Positions 417 through 4,144 of a stretch of DNA of 5,523 nt are shown one piece after another. Position numbers and translations under genes: made by a program. Origin of the DNA: Fidelibacterota bacterium (lineage in GTDB: Bacteria > Fidelibacterota > Fidelibacteria > Fidelibacterales > Fidelibacteraceae); assembly GCA_030629925.1 (NCBI GenBank), contig DAOVOB010000094.1, positions 1 to 5,523 on the forward strand, given 5' to 3'. Below the pieces are notes generated by a model. The model was not told the origin of the DNA, made no database searches, and worked only from the letters and a program-made list of their open reading frames with translations. Numbering within the stretch: position 1 is the stretch's first letter; every line of letters begins with the position of its first letter.

Positions 417-444
417 GAGATCCTTCGACTACGCTCAGGATGAC
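417..444 (-). repeat. Dispersed palindromic unit, copy A1 (minimal form)
   Basis: Read on the - strand this 28-bp unit begins GTCAT-CCT-GA and ends GA-AGG-ATCTC, with only GCGTAGTC between. ATCCT and AGGAT form a 5-bp stem (420-424 with 437-441 on the + strand), flanked inward by GA facing GA. It is the shortest of four related copies in the window (others at 655-705, 2683-2740 and 2768-2824). On the + strand it is followed by AATATT, as is copy A2. It is intergenic and not coding. Confidence 0.85.
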
Positions 445-468
445 AATATTCTTGCTTCCGCTCACTCC

Positions 469-486
469 TTACTACTTACTGTATTC
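469..486. repeat. 18-bp direct repeat, first copy
   Basis: TTACTACTTACTGTATTC here is identical to 712-729. Both copies lie shortly downstream of a GTCAT...ATCTC unit followed by AATATT, which suggests that a whole spacer module was duplicated and then diverged. Confidence 0.85.
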
Positions 487-654
487 CGACTTCCGGCTTG
501 CGCATCGCGTCTCTACACGATGGCGTTTATTTTGTCTTTTCGCTCTTTACTTTCTTCTCCGTACTTTCTTACTACAAAATATTTTATTTAATATGTTTTG
601 GAACAAAGTTTACACACACATAATCTTTTATCATTTTAAGGGATTTTAAAGTTT

Positions 655-705
655 GAGATCCTTCAGCTACGCTTGCCAAATAGCCTGCGCTCCGTTCAGG
701 ATGAC
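655..705 (-). repeat. Dispersed palindromic unit, copy A2 (with inner insert)
   Basis: Same ends as copy A1: on the - strand GTCAT-CCT-GA at one side and GA-AGG-ATCTC at the other. Here the middle is about 23 bases longer (roughly 671-693 on the + strand), carrying an insert that A1 lacks. The stem bases ATCCT (658-662) and AGGAT (698-702) are retained. The following AATATT and nearby 18-bp repeat match the A1 locus. Confidence 0.85.
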
Positions 706-711
706 AATATT

Positions 712-754
712 TTACTACTTACTGTATTCTGGCTTCTGGCTTCTGGCTTCTGCC
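712..754. repeat. 18-bp repeat (second copy) running into a TTCTGGC heptamer tandem
   Basis: Positions 712-729 repeat 469-486 exactly. From 727 the heptamer TTCTGGC occurs three times exactly (727-733, 734-740, 741-747) and a fourth time with one change (TTCTGCC, 748-754). The tandem starts at the same place where the first module reads TTCCGACTTCCGGC, so it looks like a local slippage expansion of that text. Confidence 0.8.
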
Positions 755-818
755 TGCTGTATTCTGCTTAACCTACTATGCTAAATTGCGTTTTTAGCTT
801 CGAAGGGCTGTTTTCCAG

Positions 819-850
819 CTTTTGCCTTTTGTCCTTTGCCTTTTGCCTTT
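819..850. repeat. Low-complexity pyrimidine tract (TTTTGCC repeats)
   Basis: Degenerate tandem repeats of CTTTTGCC and TCCTTTGCC. Very similar text occurs at 5316-5346 before the kinase gene. The open frame that starts inside it (TTG at 822) has no ribosome binding site, so I treat the tract as spacer sequence. Confidence 0.7.
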
Positions 851-940
851 GGGTTTGGTTTCCCTCTTTCTTCCTTTGTGTAAGGTGGTTAGAAAAATTC
901 CACATTTTATTGCTAATCATTCAAAAAAATCAAGAAATGA

Positions 941-997
941 ATTGAAAATGATTGAAAATTTGTGCAAATTGAAAAGATTGATAAATAATTGTACTAA
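941..997 (+). promoter_or_regulatory. Candidate promoter region of the deacetylase gene, weak
   Basis: ATTGAAAA occurs three times (941-948, 951-958, 968-975) just upstream of the gene at 1040. The third copy offers a -35-like TTGAAA (969-974) with TACTAA (992-997) 17 bases further on. An alternative -10-like box is AATAAT (984-989). None matches a sigma-70 consensus well, and the organism's consensus is unknown. A promoter is expected here because about 1 kb of gene-free sequence precedes the gene. Confidence 0.25.
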
Positions 998-1039
998 ACA
1001 GATTTTGGACAGAAAAACCTATAACGAAAAGGAGCGAGC

Positions 1040-1837
1040 ATGAAGTTTTTACGCCGCACAGGAGAAGACGTAAAAAGTGTTGATAATTTAAAAGGTTTAT
1101 TTCCAGATTGGAAAGAAAATGAAACTTGGTTGTTCATCGGACCACACGATGATGATATTGTATTAGGTTCGGGTATTACTATGAAATCCGCCATTGAAGC
1201 GGGTGTTGATGTTTATGCGCTTGTAACCACAGATGGTGGTATGGGCTATTGCCACATGGAACAGGAAAAAACCATTGGTAAGATCCGACAGGAAGAAACC
1301 ATTGATTCTTTTAAGATCATGGGCCTTGATGAAGATCATTTCTTTTTTGCTGATTTCCCTGATTGTGACACCACCTCTTTTGTCGGCCGTCGTGCAGCTA
1401 AAGCCGGCGATCCTGCGATTGAAGGTTATACCGGACTACAAAACGCATTCACATATTATATTCGTAAGGTTAAACCGACTCGTATATTTTTGCCTACAGG
1501 CGAAGATCTGCACCCGGATCATAAGATCGTCTATCAGGAAGTTCTTATTTCCATGTTCCATGCCGGTGGTAATATCTGGCCGGAACTCGGTGAACCGACC
1601 CCACCGCCCGTAGCTTATGAATTTGGTGTCTACTGTGATTTTGCCGGGGCACCCAATCTAAAGATCGAAGCAAGCGAAGAAGTATTCCAAACAAAATTGA
1701 ATGCTATTCTTGCTTATAAATCTCAAGAACAAATCGCATCATTGGTCGAAGGCGTTAAGGCCGGCGGACCATTTGAATATATTCGCGAGATCGAGTTTAG
1801 ATTCTACTCAGTGAACAATTATAAGGATCTATTCTAA
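1040..1837 (+). CDS. PIG-L (LmbE-like) family metal-dependent deacetylase
   Basis: A 265-residue cytoplasmic protein with no signal peptide or membrane segment, close to the usual size of bacterial PIG-L/LmbE proteins. These are typically Zn-dependent enzymes that remove N-acetyl groups from sugars or sugar conjugates. The first motif is GPHDDDIVLG (34-43), corresponding to the common AHPDDE: His36 and Asp39 are the expected metal ligands and Asp38 the expected catalytic base. The second is HPDH (158-161), giving the third ligand, His161. The Glu that normally follows the two Asp is Ile40, and the Pro after His36 is Asp37, so this is a variant subfamily. The ATG has AAGGAG at 1029-1034 with 5 bases spacing. 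A terminator follows the gene. The substrate cannot be read from the sequence; the neighbouring SIS protein and ROK kinase suggest an N-acetyl amino sugar. A hydrolase acting on another amide is possible. The family call is secure; the substrate is inference. Confidence 0.9.
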   Translation: MKFLRRTGEDVKSVDNLKGLFPDWKENETWLFIGPHDDDIVLGSGITMKSAIEAGVDVYALVTTDGGMGYCHMEQEKTIGKIRQEETIDSFKIMGLDEDHFFFADFPDCDTTSFVGRRAAKAGDPAIEGYTGLQNAFTYYIRKVKPTRIFLPTGEDLHPDHKIVYQEVLISMFHAGGNIWPELGEPTPPPVAYEFGVYCDFAGAPNLKIEASEEVFQTKLNAILAYKSQEQIASLVEGVKAGGPFEYIREIEFRFYSVNNYKDLF

Positions 1838-1853
1838 GAACTATATGAACAAG

Positions 1854-1884
1854 GGCGTCCGTCAGTTGACGGACGTCTTTTTTT
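1854..1884 (+). terminator. Intrinsic terminator after the deacetylase gene
   Basis: A 10-bp stem, GGCGTCCGTC (1854-1863) with GACGGACGTC (1868-1877), contains one G-T wobble and an AGTT loop, and is followed by seven T (1878-1884). This is a textbook intrinsic terminator, 16 bp past the stop codon. Its T-run directly adjoins the ribosome binding site of the next gene (1885-1889), so the 57-bp gap has no room for a separate promoter after it. Partial read-through, or an attenuator role, is therefore likely. Confidence 0.9.
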
Positions 1885-1889
1885 AGGAG
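1885..1889 (+). promoter_or_regulatory. Ribosome binding site supporting a TTG start
   Basis: AGGAG lies 5 bases before TTG at 1895. It begins immediately after the terminator's T-run. There is no ATG or GTG in frame nearby. The first in-frame ATG (Met27) would cut through the CGDDD segment at the start of the fold, so TTG is the best start. Confidence 0.75.
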
Positions 1890-1894
1890 CTTTT

Positions 1895-2674
1895 TTGGAA
1901 CTTCTCGCATTAAGAAGATTTACACAAGGATCCGGGAAAAAAATACTGTTTTGTGGTGATGACGATATCGATATGGCTGCGATATATCTTGCAGCTATCA
2001 TTCACGCGGAAGGATACGACATGGATTATATCCCATCCGCTTTATCCTTTCCCCAAAATATCAATATTCCTGCTTACGATTTGATCATTCTATCCGATTA
2101 TCCTCGCGAACAAATAAAGGATGAACAGCTTGAAGAGATCGCTGATTTCACTAAAGAAGGCGGTTCACTTTTAATGATCGGTGGTTGGGAATCATTTACA
2201 GGTCTAAATATTGAATATAAGAATTCTCCCATTGAAGCTATTTTGCCGGTTATTTTAAGTGAAAAAGATGATCGTAGAAATTATGATCAGGGAATTATTG
2301 TAACCCCAATAGATATATATCATCCTGTATGCAAGGGATTGGATTGGCAGCGACCTGCTGTGATCGGCGGTTATAATGAATTTGAACCTAAAGATAATGC
2401 TACCTGTATATTGTGTGGTAAAAAAATAAAGATCACATCCGAAGATAAAGTGATCAAAACAGAAGTGGATGAAGAAGAAATACCCCTCTTGGTACTGGGT
2501 ACAGCCGGAGAAGGCAAAACTGCCGCTTTAGCTTTTGACCTGGCACCGCATTGGGTAGGTGGTTTTGTGGACTGGGGAACCGGTCGCAAACATGTTGATT
2601 TTGAAACAGGTTTCATTGAAGTGGGGGATATGTACTATCGCTTCGTTGCAAACCTCTTGAAAAGTATGTTCTAA
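1895..2674 (+). CDS. Glutamine-amidotransferase-fold protein (DUF1355/PF07090-like), probably no amidotransferase activity
   Basis: A 259-residue soluble protein. It opens with a strand and a turn rich in Asp (ILFCGDDDID, 17-26), then a long helix, a second strand ending YDLIILSDYP (61-70), and KEGGSLLMIGGWESFTG (87-103). That last segment aligns with the nucleophile-elbow region of class I glutamine amidotransferases. In active enzymes a Cys follows the glycine; here the stretch reads IGGW, with no Cys. The C-terminal part PLLVLGTAGEGKTAALAFDLAPHW (197-220) matches the pattern I recall for PF07090, where a Gly-rich turn precedes a conserved Asp and a His-Trp. ThuA-like and trehalose-utilisation proteins share this fold and often sit in sugar operons. 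A short insertion, CILCGKK (171-177), holds a CxxC pair. No function can be assigned. It follows the deacetylase through a terminator and precedes the PFK-type gene, so a role in the same sugar pathway is plausible. The fold call is fairly sure; the family is from memory. Confidence 0.72.
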   Translation: MELLALRRFTQGSGKKILFCGDDDIDMAAIYLAAIIHAEGYDMDYIPSALSFPQNINIPAYDLIILSDYPREQIKDEQLEEIADFTKEGGSLLMIGGWESFTGLNIEYKNSPIEAILPVILSEKDDRRNYDQGIIVTPIDIYHPVCKGLDWQRPAVIGGYNEFEPKDNATCILCGKKIKITSEDKVIKTEVDEEEIPLLVLGTAGEGKTAALAFDLAPHWVGGFVDWGTGRKHVDFETGFIEVGDMYYRFVANLLKSMF

Positions 2675-2682
2675 ATTGAATT

Positions 2683-2740
2683 GTCATCTCGACCGGATCC
2701 TGTCCCGAAGTTTCGGGAACGGGAGAAGCGGAGAGATCTC
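2683..2740 (+). repeat. Dispersed palindromic unit, copy B1
   Basis: Begins GTCAT-CTC-GA and ends GA-GAG-ATCTC. ATCTC (2686-2690) can pair with GAGAT (2733-2737), so the variable triplet CTC is matched by GAG. The middle holds its own perfect hairpin, TCCCGAA-GT-TTCGGGA (2703-2718). It lies 8 bp after the stop codon of the amidotransferase-like gene. No T-run follows either hairpin, so it is not an intrinsic terminator. Confidence 0.85.
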
Positions 2741-2767
2741 AAACATTCAACTTATAGTGAAGATTTT

Positions 2768-2824
2768 GAGATTTCTCCACTACGTTCAGTATCTTAACAG
2801 ACACTGAACTTCGGTCGAAATGAC
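2768..2824 (-). repeat. Dispersed palindromic unit, copy B2 (inverted partner of B1)
   Basis: On the - strand the unit begins GTCAT-TTC-GA and ends GA-GAA-ATCTC. The stem is ATTTC with GAAAT (on the + strand 2771-2775 with 2817-2821). The middle carries a different hairpin, GTTCAGT (2784-2790) with ACTGAAC (2803-2809), extended by TCT/AGA across one mismatch. Copies B1 and B2 face each other tail to tail. TGTCATCTCGACCG (2682-2695) and CGGTCGAAATGACA (2812-2825) are complementary except for one base, so the whole 144-bp block can fold on itself. Confidence 0.85.
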
Positions 2825-2941: not shown

Positions 2942-4144
2942 ATGAAAGGAATTGCTGTCGTAGCACAAACCGGTGGACCTACAGCTGTGATAAATTCAAG
3001 TCTGGCCGGAATTATCTCACAATGTCTTAAAGAGGATAATGTTGAAGAAGTTTGGGGATGTTATTTTGGCATGAAAGGTTTACTGGAAGAAGATTTTATT
3101 GATCTGAGCAATGCACCTGTCGATCTGCTTCAACAAACACCCGGATCTGCTCTTGGATCCTCGCGCATTAAACTAAATTCTGAAAATATACCACGTGTTT
3201 TTGAAGTTTTTAAAAAATATAATATCCGCTACTTTTTCGGTATTGGCGGCGACGATACACAATTAAACGTTTATGAAGTTGAAAAATATTGCAAAGAGCA
3301 AGGATATGAACTGTCTGGCATGGGTTGTCCAAAAACTGTTGATAATGACCTGCCTTTGACCGACCATACTCCCGGATTCCCTTCTGCGGCTCGTTATACG
3401 GCACTATCTGTCTTTCAGGGCGGCCGTCTTACCCGGGATATGCAAAAGGTCGACCAATTCGTTATTTATCAGACCATCGGACGTTCAGCAGGATGGTTGG
3501 CAGCCGCACCTTATGGTTTTAAAGAAAAAGAATCGGATCCGCCTCATATCATCCTGATGCCTGAAACTCCTTTCAATGAAGATAAATTTGTCGCCTTCTT
3601 CAAAGAATGTTATGAAAAGTACGGTTTTGTTTCAATTATTACCGGTGAAGGTGTAATGGATGAGGATGGCAATCCGGTTTCTGCAACGAAAGTGAAAGAT
3701 GATTTCGGTAACAAAGAATTCGGTGCCATGGGTGGCGTCTCGGTTGGAATGGAGATCCATAAGATCATTACAAAACATTTCCCTGATATGCGCGGTGAAT
3801 TTCAAGTAACGGAATCTTTGCCCATGTGCGCGGATGACCGTACCGTTGATATCGATGTAAAAGAAGCCTTTGAATTGGGTGTTAAGGCCGTAGAATTGGC
3901 TGCCAATGGCGAATCGGGCTACATGACTACGATAGAACGCCTCGAAGGTCCTGAATACAAGACGCAGATCGGCAAAGTTCCCCTATGCGATGTAGGTGGA
4001 AAACAAAAACCGATCCCTGCCAAATACATTGCTGAGAACGGTATGGATATGACTCCGGCATTTAATGAATATATTCGTCCCTTACTGGGTGAAAAACCTA
4101 AATACGCTGATCTTAGTGTATTAAAAACAGTCGATAAGAAATAA
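2942..4144 (+). CDS. Phosphofructokinase-family protein, diphosphate (PPi)-dependent type
   Basis: A 400-residue cytoplasmic protein covering the whole PFK fold. It starts with the nucleotide/diphosphate loop TGGPTAVIN (10-18), continues with GIGGDD (100-105), PKTVDND (130-136) and GRSAGW (180-185), and has the PE pair at 207-208. Asp105 in GGDD and Lys131 in PKTVDND replace the two Gly of ATP-dependent enzymes, the accepted mark of PPi-dependent PFK. Asp134 and Asp136 are the expected catalytic and metal-binding residues. In the C-terminal half, where the PPi-type family usually has a segment like LQRxAxH before the SxTDxxEA helix, this protein reads SLPMCADD (292-299), so the Arg that binds the 6-phosphate appears to be Met295. 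The substrate may therefore differ from fructose 6-phosphate (tagatose-, sedoheptulose- or another sugar phosphate). AAGGAG at 2927-2932 lies 9 bases before the ATG. The gene ends in tandem stops TAA-TAA-TAG, 21 bp from the SIS gene, so the two are probably cotranscribed. Family certain; PPi use likely; substrate open. Confidence 0.9.
   Translation: MKGIAVVAQTGGPTAVINSSLAGIISQCLKEDNVEEVWGCYFGMKGLLEEDFIDLSNAPVDLLQQTPGSALGSSRIKLNSENIPRVFEVFKKYNIRYFFGIGGDDTQLNVYEVEKYCKEQGYELSGMGCPKTVDNDLPLTDHTPGFPSAARYTALSVFQGGRLTRDMQKVDQFVIYQTIGRSAGWLAAAPYGFKEKESDPPHIILMPETPFNEDKFVAFFKECYEKYGFVSIITGEGVMDEDGNPVSATKVKDDFGNKEFGAMGGVSVGMEIHKIITKHFPDMRGEFQVTESLPMCADDRTVDIDVKEAFELGVKAVELAANGESGYMTTIERLEGPEYKTQIGKVPLCDVGGKQKPIPAKYIAENGMDMTPAFNEYIRPLLGEKPKYADLSVLKTVDKK

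Follow-up and report, generated by a model that had tools for sequence, protein, structure and literature searches.

The dispersed bacterial repeats that come closest to those described here are certain repetitive extragenic palindromic (REP) sequences and the doublets that they form. For REPs tagged CGTC, Di Nocera et al. (2013, PMC3733652) report that no tyrosine transposase gene was flanked by them and that a dedicated transposase is lacking. In the REP doublets forming hairpins (REPINs) of Pseudomonas fluorescens, compensatory changes in the hairpin are common (Bertels and Rainey 2011, PMC3116915). Here we examine units with GTCAT and ATCTC ends found in a stretch of 5,523 nucleotides (the window) that makes up contig DAOVOB010000094.1 of a draft Fidelibacterota genome (assembly GCA_030629925.1; 257 contigs, 1.458 Mb, completeness 72.65%; C250 in our contig numbering). 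They are REP-like hairpin repeats and probably form the structured ends of a tiny mobile element, because units with such covarying stems also bracket stand-alone GIY-YIG genes, both in this genome and in others; the GIY-YIG nuclease is predicted to recognise and cut them by their shape and not by their stem sequence.

All four units of the window are intergenic, and on re-reading each was found where, and on the strand on which, the original prediction had placed it, with the ends, the complementary triplets (4/4) and the GA facing GA inside them (4/4) that had been claimed. Unit A1 (417 to 444, minus strand) is the short form and reads, directly from the sequence, GTCAT-CCT-GA-G-C-GTA-G-T-C-GA-AGG-ATCTC; it has a C-GNA-G triloop in which N is T, an extra T on the 3' arm, and matches the short-unit pattern that was counted across phyla (see below). 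The other three are long forms, characterised from their sequence and a parse of their modules: A2 (655 to 705, minus strand) has CCT/AGG arms, an A-T pair and GGA facing GTA, enclosing a further hairpin; B1 (2683 to 2740, plus strand) has CTC/GAG arms, a C-G pair, GGA facing GAA and an inner hairpin; and B2 (2768 to 2824, minus strand) has TTC/GAA arms, a C-G pair, GAA facing GTA and an inner hairpin. B1 and B2 had been presented as separate copies, which holds for them as units, but the pair is better described as the left and right halves of one inverted doublet (2683 to 2824), gene-less and REPIN-like, with its GTCAT ends outward and its halves 27 bp apart. Its spacer (2741 to 2767) reads, with its feet, ATCTCAAA ... 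TTTTGAGAT, which are able to pair.

Covariation and architecture of the units

The pattern GTCATN{8,38}NNNATCTC has 175 matches in the window's genome against 29 for a reversed control, and the stricter GTCATNNNGAN{4,34}GANNNATCT (in short, GTCATNNNGA...GANNNATCT) has 83 (40+43) against 0+0 for the reversed pattern. Triplets were compared with the pattern GTCAT(N3)GA..GA(N3)ATCT[CA], which does not require them to be complementary: they are so at 65 of the 69 distinct places examined in the genome, with 7 types, and at 2 more if wobble is allowed (5000 shuffles: mean 19.2, maximum 33). A species-level genome collection scanned with GTCATNNNGANCGNAGNNGANNNATCT yielded at least 120 stretches. 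Their titles, among the matches listed (the scope of all cross-phylum counts below), span more than 10 phyla and include Bacteroidota (many of them Hymenobacter), Clostridia, Verrucomicrobia, Chloroflexi, Kiritimatiellae, Planctomycetes, Proteobacteria and Saccharibacteria. In this set, 148 of 156 short units (118 loci, 20-base flanks) have complementary triplets, of 13 types (2000 shuffles: mean 21.9, maximum 36), and the pair next to GA is Watson-Crick in 150. When a single match per locus is kept (120 rows, 66 distinct), 98.5% of cells are paired and the covariation score reaches 0.540, compared with 0.190 for shuffles and at most 0.199 for a slid control.

The observation of covarying units is therefore confirmed, far above shuffles, by the search for further copies that the original prediction had called for. 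Two of its accompanying statements need amending. Compensatory change does fit copying of, or selection on, a folded strand, with which such repeats are consistent, but it does not force that conclusion, as correction of palindromes by template switching would also keep complementarity; and the statement that no covariation had been described for such repeats does not wholly hold, since compensatory changes in the REPIN hairpin are already in print (PMC3116915).

The middle of the units had been described as variable. It does vary, but it is not free, most copies obeying a grammar of modules. Short units follow the scheme GTCAT-NNN-GA-X-C-GNA-G-b-X'-GA-N'N'N'-ATCT; in general, tandem G·A is followed by a covarying pair and then either by a C-GNA-G triloop or by GNA facing GNA, which carries another hairpin. 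Among 149 distinct interiors parsed in the genus, 24 are short (G-N-A in 20), 111 are long (GNA facing GNA in 80) and 14 remained unparsed; the 91 distinct interiors of other genomes in this parse were copied by hand, with duplicates and matches unlike units omitted, and served solely for the module parse and the strand counts, never for triplet complementarity. Long units have GNA facing GNA in 14 of 26 cases at the cross-phylum loci and in 4 of 17 in viral stretches, and interiors also contain modules of two other kinds, GA facing GA and AA facing GC. In 156 of the listed matches, the triloop N is A in 67, C in 44, T in 30 and G in 15, and the extra base on the 3' arm is T in 107, C in 45, A in 2 and G in 2. 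T precedes GTCAT in all four window units, as it does in 108 of 158 listed matches (C in 41), GTC itself being fixed by the search pattern; the base after ATCT in the same 158 is C in 108, T in 23, A in 17 and G in 10. The unit finder is blind to other arm classes, for instance the TGC/GCA units spotted by eye around locus L522. Minihairpins of the C-GNA-G kind are unusually stable in DNA. A general treatment of such minihairpins is found in PMC10527192.

We infer that the GTCAT strand is the one that folds, because the purine modules exist on only one strand. As a strand test, counts of G·T versus A·C stand at 5 versus 3 in the cleaned set, which is no clear excess, 58 versus 39 for symmetric folds and 25 versus 13 within helices. 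A count of 51 versus 7 in the second helix was rejected as an artefact because this site is a C/T bulge rather than paired.

Neighbouring units are arranged in a recurrent way. On the contigs of the window's genome that were examined, all 15 neighbour pairs are inverted doublets, plus then minus, with GTCAT outward, and 12 of the 15 spacers measure 28-30 bp counted from ATCT; at cross-phylum loci, 33 of 50 neighbour pairs are inverted with GTCAT outward. The feet of doublets are complementary (ATCTCAAA/TTTGAGAT and ATCTATTCA/TGAATAGAT). For 93 in-register pairs of units from the window's genome, the alignment starts within 12 nt of GTCAT in 77 and further upstream in 16. Dispersed REP-like units that covary, that have mostly sharp copy boundaries and that frequently form inverted doublets are thus supported. 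The orthologous intergenic region of a sister species (G006) is without the window doublet and contains other hairpins, one with a GTAGGGGC foot. In a clostridial genome (G053, contig C2, 49101-52995), units form long arrays in which they lie tens of bases apart, mostly in one direction.

A GIY-YIG gene between inverted units

When the 433 genes lying within 400 bp of a unit at the loci examined were clustered, the largest cross-locus cluster was that of a stand-alone GIY-YIG gene (6 genes in 5 loci), which also supplies 3 of the 13 genes that are flanked by units to the left and right; the next-largest clusters (5 members each) come from five viral contigs that have these genes in common. We searched 22 genomes for such genes and then read their flanks, a gene being called bracketed when a unit lies on both sides within 600 bp. 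Small GIY-YIG genes of the linked type number 37, in 17 of the 22 genomes, ten loci without a small GIY-YIG reading by motif being outside this count. A unit is present on at least one side of 27 of them, and 16, across 13 genomes, are bracketed, all with a plus unit on the left and a minus unit on the right, that is, with GTCAT outward. Bracketed cases are found in Hymenobacter, Prevotella (L423), an alphaproteobacterium (L428), a clostridium (L437) and the window's genus. Both brackets carry the same triplet in 11 of the 16 and differing triplets in 5. In controls, brackets surround 4 of the 412 remaining genes in the window's genome, 0 of 100 further open reading frames (70-150 aa), 5 of 518 genes at loci chosen for holding a unit, and 0 of 47 genes at loci of Y1 transposases.

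A second set, made of 14 strong GIY-YIG matches from the window's phylum, comprises 5 bracketed genes, and 11 of its genes have a unit to one or both sides; at two of its loci (L511 and L514) the brackets are perfect-stem CCTGAA...TTCAGG units. A match to the GIY-YIG profile was also obtained in 13 of another 16 genomes that contain units, most of them from isolates; in 8 the match exceeds 100 bits, in one of the 8 with a stop. Small GIY-YIG genes of other types (n=6) are without a unit within 600 bp in five cases; the sixth (L460) is bracketed, and it reads like the linked type, having been mis-sorted by motif. At L429, L436 and L437, the calls of the GIY-YIG reading frame extend backwards across the neighbouring unit, which yields recurring spurious peptides such as CHPERSEG.

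The window's genome itself carries a composite of 498 bp (contig C29, 3281-3778), made of a unit (3281-3308), the GIY-YIG gene (3396-3695) and a second unit (3729-3778), with inner ends ATCTATTCATGA / TCATGAATAGAT. A composite of the sister species (G006, contig C128) consists of a CTC unit with foot ATCTCAAA, the GIY-YIG gene, and TTTGAGAT with a TTC unit, so that its ends have the order, arms and feet of the window doublet. Gene-less doublets share ends with gene-bearing elements in both instances, the window doublet with the G006 composite and the ATCTATTCA doublets with that of C29. Some copies at different sites have the composite in common and differ around it: the alignment between two Hymenobacter copies (L452 and L455) covers 417 bp, from AGAACGTCAT to ATGACGTTCT, and stops there. 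At L457 the inverted repeats are ~53 bp long, reaching ~31 bp beyond the units. Measured between the nearest outward units, the 16 brackets are 405 to 1334 bp long, and ten stay below 545 bp. The composites of L457 and L149 lie inside longer near-palindromes (CCCAACCAGGCC/GGCCTGGTTGGG and GAGGAAT/ATTCCCTC), which may hint at hairpin targets.

Bracketed GIY-YIG genes are about 100 codons long. All five proteins scanned exceed the cut-off of PF01541, and 17 aligned proteins have invariant Y, Y-x-G, R, H, E and N residues, as would suit the predicted nuclease; we take these residues to be the catalytic ones. The structure model of the protein from the window's genome is confident (mean pLDDT 93.3).

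A proposed element and its alternatives

These associations suggest the following mechanism, in which mobility, cleavage and recognition by shape are all predictions. The composite would be the autonomous form, gene-less doublets such as 2683-2824 would be derivatives akin to miniature inverted-repeat transposable elements (MITEs), and single units would be solo ends. The GTCAT strand would fold once single-stranded or extruded, the GIY-YIG domain would nick the folded or cruciform ends close to their feet, and repair or replication would then copy the element elsewhere. Stem letters would be free to drift while the fold is kept, which would yield covariation. Going one step further, it is possible, and we suggest it tentatively, that mobile elements of a class new to bacteria are at work here, each with a single ~300 bp GIY-YIG gene between inverted ends read by DNA shape (tandem G·A, GNA loops, free stem letters), and that their gene-less doublets and solo ends constitute the REPs of the CGTC/TGTC type. 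A concrete gene partner makes the missing-transposase question of CGTC-type REPs testable at the bench. Units kept in shape and free in sequence would explain how hundreds to about a thousand copies per genome exist in many phyla, and how they escape sequence-based repeat finding, and a GIY-YIG enzyme would bring a chemistry unlike that of the HUH Y1 enzymes to which REPs have been linked until now.

Several observations weigh against an element mobilised by its GIY-YIG gene. Four genomes with 57 to 1031 pattern matches (G044, G051, G059 and G060) gave no intact small GIY-YIG match; in the clostridial genome G053 the matches are weak and confined to longer frames, and a genome of the window's own phylum (G033), with 68 pattern matches, gave no strong one. 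Carriers of a match above 100 bits do have more units than other genomes, yet the difference is modest (median 13 versus 4, p = 0.024, 61 genomes), and the threshold of 100 bits, like a sharper one of 16 units (p = 0.0005), was picked after the data had been seen. Among the 37 GIY-YIG genes, 10 are without a unit within 600 bp; none of the six in a Kiritimatiellae genome (G057) is bracketed; two of the seven genes in the second set that have units on both sides are not arranged with GTCAT outward; and the association replicates poorly in viral contigs, where 1 of 39 GIY-YIG genes has a bracket and 5 have a unit to either side. The Hymenobacter genes are not independent of one another. Brackets reach 1334 bp, and therefore not every one of them is a single element. 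Doublets of G006 and of the window's genome differ in presence or absence, with junctions too diverged to place. As for covariation, two measures taken on the 120 rows with a single match per locus do not clearly exceed the shuffles: the number of double-change pairs (4) was reached by 420 of 500 shuffles and the number of pair types (11) by 12 of 500.

Homing endonucleases occur among single-domain GIY-YIG proteins, and the gene could be a passenger of this type, cutting REP doublets that are already present and lodging in the spacer, with some other enzyme spreading the doublets. Such a passenger would agree with the existence of unit-rich genomes that lack the gene, with the five brackets whose triplets differ, and with the weak match, below its cut-off, of 2 of the 5 scanned proteins to the NCBIfam group I intron endonuclease. 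It would however require a second, unseen mover, the inner ends of composites match gene-less doublets of the genus, and the inverted repeats of L457 run on past the units, as expected of one element. We consider homing unlikely as an explanation.

A somewhat smaller probability attaches to template switching during replication, which, by correcting imperfect palindromes, would keep the arms complementary with neither selection nor an enzyme that reads shape. The outer arms are indeed almost strictly Watson-Crick, with few half-changed states, and the cleaned set has no clear excess of G·T over A·C. This process leaves unexplained why the GTCAT/ATCT ends are fixed, why G and A recur in the unpaired modules and why there is a link to a single gene family. 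It can act together with the element that we favour.

That the units act as RNA, for example as 3' ends of mRNAs, with covariation reflecting selection on transcripts, seems very unlikely. At the cross-phylum loci, 38 of the 47 single units located between tandem genes are on the coding strand (several possibly per locus, under a simple open reading frame rule), but coding strands are mostly lagging-strand templates, so that this bias also fits single-stranded DNA, and the 8 of 12 found in the window's genome are not significant. Doublets, moreover, carry one unit per direction. None of the four window units is followed by the T run of an intrinsic terminator (the bases 3' of them are GAAC, AAAC, AAAC and AAAA), and the window has no Rfam match at gathering threshold.

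The original prediction had looked to RAYT (TnpA-REP) proteins, that is, to Y1 HUH transposases, as movers of the units. We searched the window's genome, its genus and 20 unit-bearing genomes with the Y1 profile PF01797. In the latter, no unit lies within 600 bp of any Y1 gene (0 of 28), so that the expected Y1 gene flanked by units was not found there, and two Y1 loci have one within 1.5 kb; in the genus, a clear unit is present at 1 of 23 Y1 loci. Seven of the 20 genomes are without a Y1_Tnp match, despite 57 to 378 pattern matches each (two of the seven are drafts of Hymenobacter isolates, with 183 and 378 such matches), and 2 of 10 genus drafts are without one too. Two custom profiles detected no Y1-like open reading frame in the 120 cross-phylum loci listed or in 50 viral stretches. 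Although the units are REP-like, form REPIN-like doublets, occur in a genome with three Y1 genes, have an extra pyrimidine on one arm and in some copies show AA facing GC, as in Escherichia coli REPs (PMC8266576), Y1 genes were on these grounds rejected as dedicated neighbours, and movement by RAYT is the least likely of the explanations considered.

The three Y1 genes of the window's genome are associated with other hairpins or inverted repeats. One (L031, contig C19, ~1350-2080), with the Y-x-x-x-Q-x-x-HH motif of subclass 1.2, lies inside a hairpin array of its own (e.g. GGACCCCTACGGGGTCC); Quentin et al. (2018, PMC6006769) list no REPs for this subclass. Another (L032, contig C243, 839-1444 and flanks) is flanked by inverted repeats centred on TGACTCAATTTTCTTAACTTTT and resembles in this the TIRYT genes that Di Nocera et al. 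describe. The third (L033, contig C67, 1165-1782) is a RAYT-like gene with an in-frame insert of ~90 bp containing GCCACGCTATAGCGTGGC-type hairpins, and its G006 ortholog (L203) is without the insert.

Other repeats were seen in and around the window. Near the contig start, a direct repeat (AGATTTATCGCGTCTCAAAAAAGAGGGTAAG...) is present twice (1-85 and 168-250). The reading frames of the window presumably encode a PIG-L-like protein, an unknown protein, a phosphofructokinase and a SIS-domain protein. In relatives (L155-L158), the region upstream of the phosphofructokinase gene holds other dispersed sequences, for example TATCCTGTTATCCTGTC tracts, with hairpins between their copies.

Comparison with known systems

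No report linking GIY-YIG genes to REP-type repeats, MITEs or REPINs was among the matches listed in our literature searches, by which subscription journals are mostly uncovered, and six unit sequences searched literally in the literature gave no match. As in MITEs, gene-less doublets share their ends with a gene-bearing element (that of G006, and that of the same genome), but there is no DDE transposase here. By sequence, the nuclease has the same domain as UPF0213 and other small GIY-YIG proteins (PDB 1zg2, 1ywl); genes of those other types mostly stand apart from units (five of the six above), whereas the linked type is often bracketed.

The ends of IS200/IS605 elements such as IS608 (PMC8266576) resemble the units in being imperfect hairpins with an unpaired base and a strand-specific shape; the ends formed by the units are an inverted pair, however, and come without a Y1 transposase. 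The likeness to the REPIN/RAYT system (PMC3116915, PMC6006769) is closer and extends to an inverted doublet as the unit of copying, to hairpins with compensatory changes and to structured ends around one small gene. The differences lie in the foot, which is GTCAT and not GTAG/GTGG, and in the partner, which is a GIY-YIG gene with no Y1 neighbour.

CGTC-tagged REPs (PMC3733652), the tag of which is an unpaired CGTC, TGTC or CCTC, share with the units its CGTC/TGTC forms, dispersal, inverted dimers and the absence of linkage to tyrosine transposases, as well as A-T pairs at stem positions 1 and 2, which are present in 4/4 window units (elsewhere these are fixed by the search patterns). Their stem of 8-9 bp and loop of 4-5 bases contrast with a stem interrupted by GA facing GA, GNA modules and a triloop or nested hairpins in the units, and their CCA tail with the CT tail of the units (ATCTC in the window); strong covariation and a GIY-YIG partner further distinguish the present units. 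We do not place these in any of the four published CGTC families, because the tag and first pairs are common to both but stem, loop and tail differ. At the alphaproteobacterial locus L428, CGTC units of the published form (GTCATCCCGGCGAAGGCCGGGATCCA, with C before and a CCA tail) stand on both sides of a GIY-YIG gene.

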